A DNA stretch of 64,000 nt from Seonamhaeicola sp. S2-3 (GTDB taxonomy: Bacteria; Bacteroidota; Bacteroidia; Flavobacteriales; Flavobacteriaceae). Under the pieces are notes generated by a model, which saw nothing but the letters and a program-made list of their open reading frames with translations, was not told where the DNA came from and did not search any database. The stretch covers positions 1,003,001-1,067,000 of the forward strand of contig NZ_CP019389.1 of the NCBI RefSeq assembly GCF_001971785.1, in the 5' to 3' direction. Shown piece by piece: positions 28,162-34,320 of this stretch. Every line of letters starts with the position of its first letter. Positions within the stretch are counted from its first letter, which is position 1. The position numbers and the translations under genes are program-made.

Positions 28162-31100
28162 ATGGAAGAATCAAGGAAAGACATCATTCAATTTATTAAT
28201 TTACAACTAGCCTCTATAGGACAACCTGTTTTTAAAGACAAAGAAAACAGTAAGGAAAAATTTTGTGACCCTGAATTTGAAAAAACCACAAGACCCCTTA
28301 TAATGAGTCTTAGAGAAAAGTCTAGACTTTTAGCAGACCATCTTTGTCCTGCAGACTCCAGAATTCAAGCTTTTATTGATGATTATTTAAAAGATGTTAA
28401 GGTTAACAAATCTTATAAATTACCAAACAACACCTTGATATTATCAAAAAAAGGACAAGCCAGAGAAGCTAGTTTACCACCCGATGGTGATTCTTTTGAA
28501 AGCGATTTAGTAAATTCTAAAAGATTAAAACAAGGTATTTTAAATAACCCTTTACACGATAAAAGAACTACTAAAGGAACCTTCCATATTGTTGAAGGTC
28601 CTCTTCCAGTTCCTTTAGATAAAAAAGAAGTACCCAAAGTAGTATTAGCTCACTTTTTAAATGAAGCTTTTAAACCTTCAGATGAGCTAAACACACTTCC
28701 TTTCACATCGAGCCAAGAAGAACAAGCAAAAACCATGGTTTCAATGCTTTTAAAGCCAGTGGTATGCCCAGAGGTAAAAGGCGTAATTTCTGAAAAAAGA
28801 TTAGAAGTTCGTTTCTTTGCTCCAGGATCTTTAGTGAGTAATTTAGATTTTGTTGAAAACATTTTTGGTAATGCTGGCAATCCTAATTTAGCACACAATG
28901 ATGCTGCTTTAGACCCAGAACACTGGACAGGACACACCGGATGTATAATTCTTGCTCCTCAACTATTAAAATTAAAAAAGAAAGATGTAGGCCTTCCTCA
29001 TTTTGATGATGCCACAGACCGTCAGAAAAAAGATGGTATGTGCTGGATAGATGAACACGAACTTTATAACGACGGTGGTGCTTTTAAAATTACATGTAGA
29101 GACGAAAGAGGCGTTGTAGTTACCTTAATTGCAGATAACTATTATGGCTACTCTAAAAAGGAAATTAAAACCCAAATTAGTTATTCTGCAAACCTTTATG
29201 GAATCTTAGAAGAAGAACATGCGGGTGGCGCCATAGCTTACGCAAGACGTGTTATGGGCGATACCGTTAACTGTAATGATTACAGTAAATACTACGGATT
29301 AGATCATACTTTTGAAGATGTTAAAAAACTACTAGGAGACCGCATTGAAGTAAAACCTGAAAACTATGCGATAGACAAAAAATATCCTAATATAGTTTAC
29401 ATACCAGAATCGTCATTCTTCAACACAAATACAAACAGCATAACTTGGCAATATAAAGGTAAAGAACAAAAACTAAAAATATCTCCTTACAAAACCTATA
29501 TGCACCCATCTGGAAATAAACTTAGGTTAGAAAAACATAAATCTATTGATTTATGGCGTATGATAGAAACCTACCCAGAAGGCGTATTTTGTCATAAACC
29601 TTGCACCGTTTCTGGTGGTGGAAAATCTGAGATTTCTAAATCTATGCAAAATGCTATTACATATAGCGCTTTCAATATTCATGACATAGAAGAAGACTTT
29701 AAAAAAGCCGACGAAATTATTGAATTTGATTATTCTACACGGTGGAAAGTTAAAGATCCTAACAGACCAAAATCAAGATCTTTCTTAAGTGAAAAAAGAA
29801 CTTTAGGTTCTGTTGTAAAACTGCTAACACCCTCAGAAGAAAACTCTGATGAGTTTAATGAATGGCTACGAAATATCCCTGTTCATGTGCGCTCTTTAGT
29901 TTTATTTGTAAAGCGTTTATTTAGGCAAGTTCATGGTGCCAACCTTAATTGGAAAGACATGATGACCGTAGATATTATTAATGGCGATAAAGGCACAGCA
30001 TTACTGTATAATCACACGCCTGTAGTTGGTAGTTATGTTCGTATTGGGTTTAACCAACAGGGGAACTGGATGCTAAATAAATTACGTTCAGATTTTTCAG
30101 CGTGCGAAAAAATTCAAACCGAAGATGATATTACAGCATCAATTACGCTTCCTAGAAATAAATTTAAAAATTTAAACTCAGAGTACCCTAACAAAAGCGT
30201 TAAAGTTGTAACCAACTGCGAAGCTCATTTATTCCAAAGACCAGATGAAGCTATTGTTAGAGGTTATGATAAGGGTGCAGAATTAGATATTATAACAGAT
30301 GGCAGATTTTTAACTAACTATGAAATGTTAACTAAAAAAGATGCTATTGAAATTTATGAAGACACCATAAATTACGATAAATACACGCAACCTGTTAAAG
30401 ACTTTATTAAAGAGATTATAGATAGTGATGATGAGAACATACAGTTTGTTTTACCTTCTCACCCAAGAATTGTAGAAGATGGTTTACCAACAAAAAATCC
30501 TCGTTATTTAGAACCCAACAGGTTTTATAAAGAAACCGAAGCTACTTATATTTCAGATATGGGGGTGCGTTTAAAAAGAAAAATTAAACCAGAAGACCCT
30601 GTAATACATGTTGTAAATGCCGTTTTACCTGGCAGAAGAAACAACCCTGTAGATAAAAAAGCTGGCATTAGACCTCTAGCGGTTTATAACCCTATTCACT
30701 ATCAAGAAACACCAGAATTATTTATGGATTTTATTTGTAGTTTAACAGGTAAATCGCCATCAACTACTGGTGCTGGGTCTGAAGGTGCCTTAACCAAAGC
30801 ACCGTTTAATATGTTAACACCAACAACCGATTTAAACAACGCTTTACTATCGCATATTTTAACAGAATCTAACGGGTTTAGTACCGCTGCTGGTTATATT
30901 GGTGCCGAAAATAAAATAGACCATGACGTGAGTTTGTTAATCCCTGAAATTTGGGCGAGAATGGCTCCTGAAGATAGAGATCCTAACAACTTAATTAAAA
31001 ACGGTTCTTTAGAAAAACTTGAAGATTTTGAGTATAAAGGCAAAAAAGTTTTAGCTAGTAGATTAGGTTACAGAATTACAAAAACCTTTGCTTTACTATG

Positions 31101-31614
31101 CTTAAACAGGCTGTTTGATGAACCTACAGCTGTATTTAGCGAAAGAATGCTTAAACCAGAACTTCAAGGACTGGAAGATTTTGTTGATGGTATAAACAAC
31201 ATTGTTGAAGCACAACAAAAAGTAGCCTTAAATTATTTTGAAGATGGTAGTATTGAAGCTGCTATACCACCATTAAAAATATTATTACACATAATGGCTT
31301 ACGGAAATTATGAAGGTAAAGATATTAACGATCCTGAATTACGTCAATATTTCAATAGAGACTATGTTTTAAATTCAGATTGGTACAAAGAAAGGTTAGC
31401 GCTAAAACAACAAAAAGATATTAAATATTATGGTTCTCAAATAGAATATTTAAAAGCTTTTAAAGCAGACCCAAATAATAATATTTTAGTTAAAGAATTG
31501 AACATAGAACAACGCTTAAAATCTGTTAAAAAACTATATAACAGAGTAAAATCTAAAGATTATATAAATGGGTTGGTTGGAACAATTGGAGCAGACCCTT
31601 TATTTAAAAAATGA
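28162..31614 (+). CDS. Putative PPi-type phosphoenolpyruvate carboxykinase (about 130 kDa)
   Basis: 1150 residues, no signal or membrane segment. The length and the block YNPIHYQETPELFMDFICSL continuing as TGKSPSTTGAGSEGALTKAP (about 863-882) fit my recall of the pyrophosphate-type PEPCKs of Entamoeba and propionibacteria (PEP + CO2 + Pi to oxaloacetate + PPi). A Gly-rich SGGGKSEISKS at about 483-493 may correspond to the phosphate-binding loop. The strong terminator at 31636-31676 makes it monocistronic. ATP-type pckA also occurs in this window at 53775, so this enzyme would be a second, energetically different route. Family assignment is from memory, not alignment; otherwise it is a large conserved protein of unknown function. 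Confidence 0.6.
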   Translation: MEESRKDIIQFINLQLASIGQPVFKDKENSKEKFCDPEFEKTTRPLIMSLREKSRLLADHLCPADSRIQAFIDDYLKDVKVNKSYKLPNNTLILSKKGQAREASLPPDGDSFESDLVNSKRLKQGILNNPLHDKRTTKGTFHIVEGPLPVPLDKKEVPKVVLAHFLNEAFKPSDELNTLPFTSSQEEQAKTMVSMLLKPVVCPEVKGVISEKRLEVRFFAPGSLVSNLDFVENIFGNAGNPNLAHNDAALDPEHWTGHTGCIILAPQLLKLKKKDVGLPHFDDATDRQKKDGMCWIDEHELYNDGGAFKITCRDERGVVVTLIADNYYGYSKKEIKTQISYSANLYGILEEEHAGGAIAYARRVMGDTVNCNDYSKYYGLDHTFEDVKKLLGDRIEVKPENYAIDKKYPNIVYIPESSFFNTNTNSITWQYKGKEQKLKISPYKTYMHPSGNKLRLEKHKSIDLWRMIETYPEGVFCHKPCTVSGGGKSEISKSMQNAITYSAFNIHDIEEDFKKADEIIEFDYSTRWKVKDPNRPKSRSFLSEKRTLGSVVKLLTPSEENSDEFNEWLRNIPVHVRSLVLFVKRLFRQVHGANLNWKDMMTVDIINGDKGTALLYNHTPVVGSYVRIGFNQQGNWMLNKLRSDFSACEKIQTEDDITASITLPRNKFKNLNSEYPNKSVKVVTNCEAHLFQRPDEAIVRGYDKGAELDIITDGRFLTNYEMLTKKDAIEIYEDTINYDKYTQPVKDFIKEIIDSDDENIQFVLPSHPRIVEDGLPTKNPRYLEPNRFYKETEATYISDMGVRLKRKIKPEDPVIHVVNAVLPGRRNNPVDKKAGIRPLAVYNPIHYQETPELFMDFICSLTGKSPSTTGAGSEGALTKAPFNMLTPTTDLNNALLSHILTESNGFSTAAGYIGAENKIDHDVSLLIPEIWARMAPEDRDPNNLIKNGSLEKLEDFEYKGKKVLASRLGYRITKTFALLCLNRLFDEPTAVFSERMLKPELQGLEDFVDGINNIVEAQQKVALNYFEDGSIEAAIPPLKILLHIMAYGNYEGKDINDPELRQYFNRDYVLNSDWYKERLALKQQKDIKYYGSQIEYLKAFKADPNNNILVKELNIEQRLKSVKKLYNRVKSKDYINGLVGTIGADPLFKK

Positions 31615-31635: not shown

Positions 31636-31676
31636 GCAAAAAAATCTTAGTTAATAATTAGCTAAGGTTTTTTTGC
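31636..31676 (+). terminator. Terminator after the PPi-PEPCK-like gene
   Basis: GCAAAAAAATCTTAG (31636-31650) and CTAAGGTTTTTTTGC (31662-31676) form a 15-bp stem with one G-T pair. Confidence 0.85.
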
Positions 31677-31703
31677 TTGTAAAACGGCCTTACTATACAT
31701 TTG
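31672..31703 (+). promoter_or_regulatory. Promoter of the Cys-rich small protein / copper receptor unit
   Basis: -33 TTTG (31672-31675), a 20-nt spacer and -7 TACATTTG (31696-31703). It overlaps the 3' arm of the preceding terminator. The predicted transcript start lies about 10 nt before the TTG start codon at 31720. Confidence 0.6.
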
Positions 31704-31719
31704 TAAAAACTAAACTAAG

Positions 31720-32088
31720 TTGACAAAAGCCACAGCCATATTCTTTGTTTTCTTGTATATGCTAGCTATGTTAAGACCTATTCAACCCTGTATTGAATAT
31801 CTGCTTAATCAAGACTATATTGCTGAGTTTTTATGTGTTAATAAAGACAAACCCGAGCTACAGTGTAACGGAAAATGCCACCTGGCAAAAGAGCTAAAAA
31901 AACAGCAACAACAAGAGCCCTTAACCACGCTATCCGTTTATATGGAAAATTATCCTATTGGTTTTGTTAACATTCTAAACATATCTAAAAGCACTGTAAT
32001 TACTTTAAAAAAGGAACACTTTTTTTATTACAAAAACCTTTATAATTTCAATATAAAGAAATCTATTTTTCAACCTCCAATTATATAG
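31720..32088 (+). CDS. Small Cys-containing membrane protein, likely copper-uptake partner
   Basis: 122 residues from a TTG start; the ATG at 31759 would cut into the hydrophobic helix at residues 5-22. After the helix come Cys24, Cys39, Cys49 and Cys53 in EFLCVNKDKPELQCNGKCHL. This Cys block recurs in short flavobacterial proteins, as far as I recall. The rest is polar (KKQQQQEP) and probably periplasmic. The next gene, 93 bp on, encodes a copper-type TonB receptor, so metal handling by the four Cys is a reasonable inference. No biochemical role is established to my knowledge. Confidence 0.65.
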   Translation: MTKATAIFFVFLYMLAMLRPIQPCIEYLLNQDYIAEFLCVNKDKPELQCNGKCHLAKELKKQQQQEPLTTLSVYMENYPIGFVNILNISKSTVITLKKEHFFYYKNLYNFNIKKSIFQPPII

Positions 32089-32101
32089 TTTAAAATACTT
32101 A

Positions 32102-32144
32102 TTAAGTATAAAAAAGCATTGTTTAAACATAATGCTATACTTAA
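32102..32144. repeat. Intercistronic cruciform between the small protein and the receptor
   Basis: TTAAGTATA (32102-32110) pairs perfectly with TATACTTAA (32136-32144). Inside, GCATT (32116-32120) pairs with AATGC (32131-32135). There is no T tract directly after it, so it is not a standard terminator. Confidence 0.6.
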
Positions 32145-32181
32145 ACAAAAAGCACTTTTTAACATTTTTAAACTATTATAA

Positions 32182-34266
32182 ATGAAATTACACATATCCT
32201 TATGGCTGTGTGTGTTATCTGTTTGTGTATCATTTTCTCAAACACAAAAAGATACTACCCACACAAATAGAACGCAATTACCAGAAGTAATTGTAACAGG
32301 AAACACGAATACAGACCCTACTTTTAATACTGTAAAAAACGACTATCAAAAAAAAGGAACACAACCTAAAAATGTAGCCGACTTATTTTCAGAAATTAAT
32401 GGCTTTTCGGCAATTAAACGCGGTAACTATGCTATAGACCCTGTATTTAGGGCTTCGGCTTATGAACAACTAAATGTAATGTATGATGGTGGCACAAAAG
32501 CGGTACATGCTTGTCCAAACCGTATGGATCCAATAACTACCCATGTTATTCCAGAAGAAATTGAAAAAATTGAAGTTGTTAAAGGTCCTTATACTGTAAG
32601 ATACGGTGCTACTTTTGGTGGTATTGTAAATATGGTAACCAAAGACCCTAATAAGCTTGAAAAAGGGCTTCATGGCAAAACCTCTGTAGGCTATGAAACC
32701 AACGGAAATGCCTTGGTTAGCTTAATTCAACTACAACACGTCTCAAACAAATTTAATGTAACTGGTAACGTTGGATATAGAGATTTTGATGATTATGAAG
32801 ATGGCAATAACAATACTATTCCATCAGCCTTCAGAAGTACAGATTACGGCTTAAAACTTGGGTATAACCTCTCTGAAAATCAATACATACAAGCACATTG
32901 GCGTCAATCGTTTGGTAGAGACACTAAACACGCTGCATTACAAATGGATACCGAGTTTGATAATAGCTCAATAGCATCTCTAGATTACAAGGCAGAAAAT
33001 ATTAGCAACAACTTAAAAGACATAACTGCTAAAGCCTTTTATAGCTACGTAGATCATTTAATGACCAATGAAAACAGACCTAATTTTAATATGGTTTTTG
33101 CTTCATCGCCAGTAACATCAACAACCATAGGTGGTAAAGTAGAAACGCATTGGTTATTTAACCAACTAAACTTATATACTGGAGCAGATGTTAACCTTAT
33201 TAGTAGAGAAGGCAACCGTACACGTACCATTAAAATGATGAATGGTAATATGCTAGATACCCCTGTTGTTATACAAGATAAAATTTGGCAAGATGCTGAA
33301 TTAAATGACATTGGTGTATTTACAGAAGCCAACTATCAAATTAACAAAACTACATTTACTGCGGGCATAAGAGTAGATTTTGTAAATGCTGATGCTAAAG
33401 ATTTAGAAGATGATTTTGCCTTGTATTATGGCAACAACGTAAGTAAAAGTGAAACCAATGTAAGCGGAACCATATCATTAAAACATAAAATAACACCAAA
33501 AGCAATACTTGAATTTGCATATGGTAGAGGCGTTAGAACCGCAAATATGGCAGAACGCTATATAAACCATTTTTCGGTAGGGCAAGACAGTTACGAATAT
33601 TTAGGAAATCCGTTCCTTAAACCAGAAATAAACAATCAATTTGAAATTGGTTTTAAAGGATATTCAAAACTTAACAACGTTAATAATTTCAGCTACCAAT
33701 TTTCTGCTTTTTATAGTGTATATGATAATTATATATCGGCAGTGGTAGATCCTAGCATTCCAAGAAAATTCATGCCAACTGAAGAACCTTTATACACCAA
33801 AGTATTCACCAACATTGATGATGCTTATAAAACAGGATTTGAGTTTATGGTTAGGTTTAACATTTTAAAAGATTATTATTTACAAAACGAATCGGCTTAT
33901 GTAAGAACCAAGAATAAAGATTTTGGAGAATCTTTACCTTTAAATCCGCCATTTAGCTCATCATTCTCTATTGGTATAGAAAAAGCATTGTATTGGGCTA
34001 AAGCACAGTACAACATAACTTCAAAGCAGTCTCATATTGCACCATCATTTGGAGAAACCGAAACTGCTGGCTATGAAACTTTTGACGTTAAAATGGGTGC
34101 CACCCTATTTAAAAATTTCACGCTGGGCGTTGCTTGTTTAAACTTATTTGATGAAACCTACACCAATCATCTAAACTTTTCATACAGAAATCAAGCAGAT
34201 TTTGACATGAGTCCTATAACAGAACCTGGACGTAATTTCACTGCTTTCTTACAATATAAATTCTAA
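32182..34266 (+). CDS. TonB-dependent copper receptor, OprC/NosA-like
   Basis: 694 residues. Signal peptide to about residue 20 (CVSFSQ), a TonB-box-like PEVIVTG at 34-40, a plug to about 160, then a 22-strand barrel ending in Phe (NFTAFLQYKF). The plug carries HACPNRMDP with Cys111 and Met115, the CxxxM half of the OprC copper site. A barrel segment carries VDHLMTN with His292 and Met294, the HxM half. In OprC these four ligands bind copper at the extracellular face. The upstream small Cys protein is probably co-transcribed. Copper specificity is inferred from these ligands. Confidence 0.85.
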   Translation: MKLHISLWLCVLSVCVSFSQTQKDTTHTNRTQLPEVIVTGNTNTDPTFNTVKNDYQKKGTQPKNVADLFSEINGFSAIKRGNYAIDPVFRASAYEQLNVMYDGGTKAVHACPNRMDPITTHVIPEEIEKIEVVKGPYTVRYGATFGGIVNMVTKDPNKLEKGLHGKTSVGYETNGNALVSLIQLQHVSNKFNVTGNVGYRDFDDYEDGNNNTIPSAFRSTDYGLKLGYNLSENQYIQAHWRQSFGRDTKHAALQMDTEFDNSSIASLDYKAENISNNLKDITAKAFYSYVDHLMTNENRPNFNMVFASSPVTSTTIGGKVETHWLFNQLNLYTGADVNLISREGNRTRTIKMMNGNMLDTPVVIQDKIWQDAELNDIGVFTEANYQINKTTFTAGIRVDFVNADAKDLEDDFALYYGNNVSKSETNVSGTISLKHKITPKAILEFAYGRGVRTANMAERYINHFSVGQDSYEYLGNPFLKPEINNQFEIGFKGYSKLNNVNNFSYQFSAFYSVYDNYISAVVDPSIPRKFMPTEEPLYTKVFTNIDDAYKTGFEFMVRFNILKDYYLQNESAYVRTKNKDFGESLPLNPPFSSSFSIGIEKALYWAKAQYNITSKQSHIAPSFGETETAGYETFDVKMGATLFKNFTLGVACLNLFDETYTNHLNFSYRNQADFDMSPITEPGRNFTAFLQYKF

Positions 34267-34290: not shown

Positions 34291-34320
34291 TAAAAGCGTT
34301 TCATTTTGAAACGCTTTTTT
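34291..34320 (+). terminator. Terminator after the copper receptor
   Basis: AAAAGCGTTTC (34292-34302) / GAAACGCTTTT (34308-34318) followed by more T. It covers the TTG at 34306 that opens the next frame, which argues against that TTG as the start. Confidence 0.8.

Follow-up and report, generated by a model that had tools for sequence, protein, structure and literature searches.

A putative copper-responsive leader peptide ahead of an OprC-like receptor in Seonamhaeicola sp. S2-3

Introduction

In short exported upstream open reading frames (uORFs) such as SecM, ApdA/ApdP and CruR, which precede the gene that they regulate, translation stalls at a C-terminal Pro-Pro, in SecM at RAGP. The present analysis concerns a 64,000-nucleotide stretch of Seonamhaeicola sp. 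S2-3 (contig NZ_CP019389.1), termed the window below, in which a small cysteine-rich uORF stands directly ahead of a TonB-dependent receptor. We consider it likely that this small reading frame is a copper-responsive, cis-acting leader peptide which sets the expression of the receptor, by whichever route. All coordinates are positions in the window unless a locus number (L) or the label C1 is given.

The closest described systems are CruR and CutF. CruR of Bordetella, a DUF2946 protein, heads a copper-receptor operon, senses copper by a CXXC motif, needs its C-terminal RAPP and controls Rho termination (PMC9426467). The same source places CruR-type proteins, mostly of Proteobacteria, at the head of TonB-receptor operons, those of the OprC type and MbnPH included. 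CutF (cutFOG of Rhodobacter capsulatus) carries a CxxxC motif and ends in a proline-rich segment; a stem shields the start of the following gene, and copper is sensed while CutF is being exported (PMC9973294). The survey in that article counts many CutF-like proteins in Bacteroidota, and across its full list TonB-like genes rank with the commonest neighbours; the parts of it that were covered contain no characterised CutF-like protein from Bacteroidota. With respect to RAPP/RGPP uORFs, Bacteroidota are reported as one of the groups without the copper class, and the TonB class was found universally in Gram-negative bacteria, so that the gap in Bacteroidota concerns the copper class only (PMC12992588). 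Among the papers listed in literature searches, none deals with the small-protein family described here, judged by title or opening of the abstract; the list of the CutF survey may include this family.

Conserved sequence of the small protein

On the forward strand of the window, a uORF of 122 residues is followed after 93 nucleotides by a TonB-dependent receptor of 694 residues. The coding features of the unit are:

31720..32088, + strand: uORF, 122 residues, TTG start; proposed copper-sensing arrest (leader) peptide
31834..31878, + strand: codons of the Cys motif C39-x9-C49-x-G-x-C53, conserved in the family
32029..32079, + strand: codons of the proposed arrest motif Y104-x3-Y108-x8-F117-Q118-P119-P120, compared over 111 rows
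32182..34266, + strand: OprC-like TonB-dependent receptor, 694 residues
32512-32514 (C111), 32524-32526 (M115), 33055-33057 (H292) and 33061-33063 (M294), + strand: ligand codons of the receptor

The family of the small protein, for which neither Pfam nor NCBIfam gives a match, is one of Bacteroidota; 146 of 395 phylum genomes contain it, and one scan yielded at least 591 confirmed stretches. No member was found in viral contigs. Seven columns are invariant in 29 members, namely C39, N41, C49, G51, C53, P119 and P120. The initial annotation had rightly described the protein as Cys-rich, but had placed four Cys residues in the segment EFLC...LQCNGKC, which holds only three (C39, C49 and C53). 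The fourth, C24, lies earlier and outside the invariant and near-invariant columns of the 29 members.

In all 80 named loci the motif C-x9-C-x-G-x-C is present, a Pro-Pro lies 1-8 residues from the C-terminus, and the third Cys is separated from the Pro-Pro by 65-72 residues. Likewise, all 80 uORFs are 119-149 residues long with the Pro-Pro in the last 15 residues, a length range which is partly set by the start rule, since starts were placed at the first ATG, GTG or TTG giving 105-150 residues. For the same reason the start-codon counts (GTG 34, TTG 24, ATG 22) are weak evidence. Together with 31 relatives the named loci make up 111 rows, in which at least four species occur twice (L003/L033, L004/L035, L013/L050, L015/L069). 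The Pro-Pro itself is found in 111/111 rows; counted back from it, Tyr occupies position -15 in 91 and position -11 in 94, Phe position -2 in 80, and His, Gln, Arg or Lys position -1 in 104, giving the C-terminal consensus Y-x3-Y-x8-F-[HQRK]-P-P. By comparison, among 796 other proteins called mechanically from these loci, only 22 carry Pro-Pro in their last 12 residues; for those of at most 160 residues the count is 12 of 182.

The pattern extends to 20 distant Bacteroidota loci, hand-picked from the list of phylum genomes. All 20 have a Pro-Pro near the end (2-5 residues from it in 18), and 18 show the Cys pattern, with a spacing to the Pro-Pro of 63-74 residues in these 18. Two distant loci, L171 and L179, display a shortened Cys spacing and a Pro-Pro near the end, which in L171 lies 18 residues from it. 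Downstream of the distant loci, 16 open reading frames were read, of which 11 were classed.

The predicted structure of the small protein stays below 70 in predicted local distance difference test (pLDDT) score except for 22 residues, and within this low-confidence model an N-terminal hydrophobic helix covers about residues 2-17.

Pairing between the end of the uORF and the next start

In the window, the end of the uORF is predicted to pair with the start region of the receptor gene, the stem taking in two bases of the receptor ATG:

32078..32095, + strand: 5' arm of the stem; runs from the end of the second Pro codon over the final codons and the stop TAG to 7 nucleotides beyond
32102..32144, + strand: inner hairpin of the predicted fold, which persists once the outer stem opens
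32166..32184, + strand: 3' arm of the stem; spans the region of translation start along with two bases of the receptor ATG

A corresponding excess of pairing is seen across loci. Between uORF end and downstream start 8.9 pairs are expected, against 3.1 in dinucleotide shuffles, with p ≤0.05 in 31 of 73 loci. The control intergenic gaps of the same loci (161 of 231 scored) give 4.1 expected pairs against 3.9 after shuffling, with p ≤0.05 in 13/161. At least eight expected pairs occur in 46/73 uORF gaps and 35/161 control gaps (Fisher p 2.6e-9). This test was confined to 73 of 81 loci with gaps of 40-260 nucleotides, and some Chryseobacterium starts were set too early in it; these were corrected in the two tests that follow.

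In an alignment-free arm-swap test (79 of 82 loci used, 61 left once similar arms were removed), cognate arms bind at a mean of -9.3 kcal/mol, compared with -6.66 ± 0.29 kcal/mol for permuted partners, and 0 of 5000 permutations were as good. The arms of the window reach -15.0 kcal/mol. Since cognate partners outperform swapped ones, the arms fit each other, although they are not globally alignable. For the mbnP group of Flavobacterium, the 5' arm comprises the final sense codons together with the stop codon.

Masking the message under a ribosome stalled at the Pro-Pro raises the mean predicted freedom of the downstream start from 0.44 to 0.60, and in the window from 0.16 to 0.46. The gain exceeds 0.2 in 26 of 78 loci as against 13 of 223 controls, where the loci are those of 81 with gaps of at least 45 nucleotides and the controls are gaps of 45-300 nucleotides only. 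In short, a stem hiding the start of the next gene is predicted in part of the loci.

The receptor and its genomic linkage to the small protein

The receptor residues C111/M115 (CPNRM) and H292/M294 (HLM) align with C143/M147 and H323/M325, the copper ligands of OprC (PMC8610252). Among structures in the PDB the receptor matches OprC at an E value of 7e-46. A fold search with the predicted receptor structure returned OprC at all of ranks 1-28, with template modelling (TM) scores of 0.75-0.77 by query length; the plug is modelled with low confidence, residues 112-121 having a pLDDT below 50. On NCBIfam TIGR01778 (TonB-copper) the receptor scores 255 bits, under the equivalog cut-off of 472. Judged by its sequence, the receptor is a remote OprC relative of the copper type with all four ligands aligned, which bears out the initial annotation, where its CxxxM and HxM motifs had been assigned to the OprC site.

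Downstream of the uORF, the 80 named loci encode 29 proteins with OprC ligands; five resemble the window receptor and 24 a second type marked by CTDKM or CTDRM. All 29 contain CxxxM and HxM, 181-184 residues apart, and CxxxM is missing from eight TonB receptors of other types in these loci. The second type, with CTDKM/CTDRM and HxMDD, retains the ligand spacing of OprC (L064, L065, L090, L096, L100, L103, L106, L108 and others), and a YtkA-like lipoprotein adjoins it in the same gene runs.

Conserved linkage of the two families, a check set beforehand, was examined in 98 genomes, comprising the own genome and 97 relatives. At a threshold of E 1e-60 or better the receptor is present in 13 of these, and all 13 have a small-protein match beside it on the same contig and strand, as the proposal of a two-gene unit had led one to expect. 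Eleven pairs were read by script and have gaps of 37-359 nucleotides; the other two are known from coordinates only, measured between matched ends, one with a CPSRM receptor that the script pattern missed (375 nucleotides) and one with the receptor truncated at a contig end (868 nucleotides). The small protein itself occurs in 55 of the 98 genomes and is thus often located elsewhere.

The genes that follow it were classed for 79 of the 80 named loci, on the basis of similarity to twelve queries, of which eight came from the loci themselves; in Pfam runs with ten of these queries or like proteins, one YtkA query fell just below the cut-off and two proteins were unmatched. The first downstream gene encodes MbnP in 30 loci, a YtkA-like protein in 17, an outer-membrane protein of the RPDGHAP type in 13, an OprC-ligand receptor in 13, another TonB receptor in three, an outer-membrane-like protein of another kind in two and a YHS protein in one. 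Over the whole downstream runs, MbnP or an OprC-ligand receptor is found in 59/79, and MbnP together with MbnH in 36 loci.

These neighbourhoods bear on what the small protein does. The initial annotation had proposed that it accepts or reduces copper behind the receptor, in a partnership held to be undescribed. The partnership is not entirely without precedent, CruR being already known before OprC-type receptors (PMC9426467). The function claim is not supported: the conserved features are those of a regulatory leader peptide, and the small gene also precedes MbnP/MbnH and others. A membrane-anchored periplasmic acceptor or reductase partnering the receptor would agree with the N-terminal helix, the conserved Cys motif and the tight linkage, and CutF too was initially conjectured to be a copper chaperone (PMC9426467). 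Such a role is opposed by the C-terminal Pro-Pro with its set spacing, by the stop region antisense to the next start and by the many non-receptor genes that follow the small gene; the low-confidence predicted structure, itself weak evidence, points the same way. We regard this role as very improbable. Taken together, Cys motif, C-terminal Pro-Pro, fixed spacing and pairing of the stop region are better accommodated by a nascent-chain sensor than by a chaperone.

Such an arrest peptide could respond to a signal different from copper, for instance the redox state of thiols, a different soft metal or the status of export. Its Cys motif could form disulfides or bind metals apart from copper, the CutF survey judged that not every CutF-like protein is specific for copper (PMC9973294), and 20 of the 79 runs lack a gene tied to copper by family. 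Given MbnP or OprC-ligand receptors in the other 59 runs, an arrest peptide for a non-copper signal appears improbable.

A second copy of the small gene is present in the own genome, where it precedes MbnP, a di-haem CCP_MauG protein (here MbnH-like) and a 333-residue protein without Pfam match. This locus (L032:7728-11114, equal to C1:2459727-2463113) is a probable second copper-uptake unit of the same genome.

Two further observations concern the surveyed loci. In 21 of the 80, two family uORFs occur on one strand within the fetched stretch, as though each operon segment had a sensor (L044, L054, L061, L066, L071, L072, L077-L080, L084, L088, L089, L092, L094, L095, L097, L105, L107, L109 and L111). 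Moreover, the outer-membrane-like protein that comes first downstream in 13 loci carries the motif RPDGHAPISVMGDHxHxKG and has a weak Phenol_MetA_deg match in Pfam (e.g. L036:6531-7574); it is possibly an undescribed copper channel.

Proposed mechanism and its alternatives

According to the leader-peptide reading, a ribosome translating the uORF would stall when copper is scarce, P119 and P120 occupying its P and A sites. Covering the message to about 32089, the stalled ribosome would dissolve 11 of 17 outer-stem base pairs, whereby the receptor start would become free and the receptor be made. When copper is plentiful, the metal would bind C39, C49 and C53 of the nascent chain and relieve the stall; once the ribosome is gone, the stem would close and the receptor be shut off. 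The stall is assigned to the copper-poor state, relieved by copper, because the target is an uptake system and because CruR behaves in this way; that the receptor would be switched on under copper shortage is thus drawn from analogy.

With the Pro-Pro at the peptidyl-transferase centre, C53 would be 66 residues away. Given the lengths of ribosomal tunnel and translocon, about 66 residues from the peptidyl-transferase centre would correspond roughly to emergence in the periplasm. It is plausible, by analogy with what is claimed for CutF, that the Cys motif of the uORF senses periplasmic copper.

A number of results weigh against this reading, some of them against the unmasking step in particular. 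Mean pairedness of the start region is equal in real and shuffled sequences (0.506 and 0.502); only the pairing partner is specific, not the overall pairedness of the start. Control gaps also fold better than their shuffles, with a mean z of -2.0 compared with -3.0 for uORF gaps, and strong pairing is missing in 27 of 73 gaps. Against swapped partners only 17/61 loci rank in the best 5% and 27/61 in the best 10%; the paralogue that precedes mbnP in the own genome lies outside the best ranks (0.633). From a mixed alignment of 14 loci, RNAalifold returned only a weak inner hairpin and not the stem. Finally, a ribosome terminating at the stop codon is predicted to open the stem just as well as one at the Pro-Pro (0.615 and 0.605, respectively), so that the fold cannot show a need for a stall.

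Other objections concern the peptide and its targets. Motifs of the RAPP kind ([RQH][AG]PP) occur in 0/111 rows, and F-x-PP is not a proven arrest motif. Of the OprC-like receptors from distant loci, two (L162, L172) are without CxxxM, and the 20 downstream runs without MbnP or an OprC-ligand receptor have no tie to copper by family. Stalling, copper binding and copper response of the uORF are themselves inferred.

Base composition leaves room for a route through Rho, which weighs against start unmasking as well. In such a CruR-like variant of the leader-peptide reading, the Pro-Pro stall would shield the transcript from Rho and copper-triggered release would let Rho terminate in the gap, the stem being secondary or a pause site. 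CruR works so in Bordetella (PMC9426467). The 3' half of the window uORF (31900-32088) has a C-minus-G value of +0.095, higher than in all 28 windows taken from the two neighbouring genes; the family mean is +0.076 as against -0.018 downstream, and gaps often exceed 100 nucleotides. A Rho route would, however, not require the uORF end to pair specifically with its own downstream start, and we hold it to be rather unlikely. For start unmasking taken alone, the case appears about evenly balanced.

To our knowledge, the sensing of copper shortage and the control of copper import have been little studied in Bacteroidota. Extending the leader-peptide reading to the phylum, we tentatively propose, with slightly less than even confidence, a class of copper-sensing arrest peptides in Bacteroidota with the new stall motif Y-x3-Y-x8-F-[HQRK]-P-P. 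In this class the codons after the Pro-Pro and the stop codon would be antisense to the next start and the Cys motif would be held 65-72 residues off for periplasmic copper; the class might control much of copper uptake, through OprC-type receptors, MbnP/MbnH, YtkA-like proteins and further outer-membrane proteins. If this holds true, the family would mark copper-uptake operons across the phylum and offer a testable arrest motif overlooked by RAPP-based surveys. It would also caution against taking small Cys-rich neighbours of metal receptors for chaperones.

Promoter and flanking elements

The unit is framed by the following elements:

31636..31676, + strand: hairpin of 19 base pairs with a U-rich 3' arm, fold z -3.5; likely terminator of the preceding gene (28162-31614)
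31696..31703, + strand: -7 promoter element of the Bacteroidota type, TACATTTG, 16 nucleotides ahead of the uORF start
34292..34318, + strand: intrinsic-terminator-like hairpin after the receptor, from the pattern scan

The 19-base-pair hairpin, which was found by folding and is not listed in the pattern scan for terminators, probably ends the preceding gene, so that the unit would begin after 31676. Within the gap between uORF and receptor, the pattern scan lists no intrinsic terminator. The naming of TACATTTG as a promoter element is based on TAnnTTTG, which we take to be the -7 promoter consensus of Bacteroidota. This motif is frequent on its own, with 108 occurrences in the window against a shuffle mean of 123, and a motif scan found none between uORF and receptor on either strand. 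The earlier view that a promoter precedes the pair and none separates the two genes is therefore upheld for this motif, but needs qualification with regard to sigma-70-like matches, two of which (31793 and 32067, + strand) lie within the pair ahead of the receptor; such matches are near chance in this region (21 found, 15.5 expected).

Over the named loci, TAnnTTTG occurs within 120 nucleotides upstream of the uORF in 43/80, compared with 26/316 control stretches. Its distance to the chosen start is only 4 nucleotides in 25 of these 43 loci (e.g. L055, L059, L110), and the uORF messages may accordingly be leaderless or nearly so.

Comparison with known systems

The window receptor shares its four ligands and its closest fold with OprC of Pseudomonas aeruginosa. 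However, the identity between the two in structural alignments amounts to 21-23%, and the window receptor stays below the TIGR01778 cut-off.

With CruR of Bordetella pertussis (Pfam PF11162) the small protein has in common its place as the first gene before TonB copper receptors and a Cys motif at a fixed distance from a C-terminal Pro-Pro. As with CruR, copper genes are headed by the family, in 59/79 downstream runs and in 13/13 cases for OprC-like receptors. The differences lie in the motifs and in the proposed output. CruR has CXXC, the window family CxxxC within C-x9-C-x-G-x-C (80/80); CruR ends in RAPP, of which the family keeps the Pro-Pro (111/111) but not the preceding residues (0/111). 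The Arg-Ala/Gly of RAPP/RGPP peptides is replaced by Phe-[His/Gln/Arg/Lys], and the spacing between the motifs is 65-72 residues instead of about 45. Moreover, a demonstrated Rho terminator in CruR is set against a predicted stem onto the next start. PF11162 (DUF2946) was not listed for any of the 29 members scanned at E values up to 1, where HMMER filters drop most matches above about E 0.1; due to this lack of a match, whole-protein homology to DUF2946 was rejected. PF11162 was found in 4 of 99 Bacteroidota genomes, over the cut-off in one, and the own genome is without a match.

CutF, by its description, is likewise shorter than 150 residues, carries CxxxC, a C-terminal proline motif and an N-terminal hydrophobic segment, and lies directly upstream of a gene whose start a stem hides (PMC9973294). 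Length below 150 residues, CxxxC and Pro-Pro in the last 15 residues are each found in 80/80 members of the window family, whose C-terminus is distinguished by the consensus Y-x3-Y-x8-F-[HQRK]-PP. A Sec signal peptide also belongs to the description of CutF-like proteins; in the window protein the low-confidence model shows a helix at residues 2-17. CutF turns on a detoxifying oxidase with copper (PMC9973294), whereas the target in the window is uptake rather than detoxification, for which the opposite sign is expected. In conclusion, the conserved motifs and neighbouring genes indicate that the family unites the targets of CruR with the anatomy of CutF; most likely it represents a variant of the already known CutF/CruR-type control and not a wholly new mechanism.

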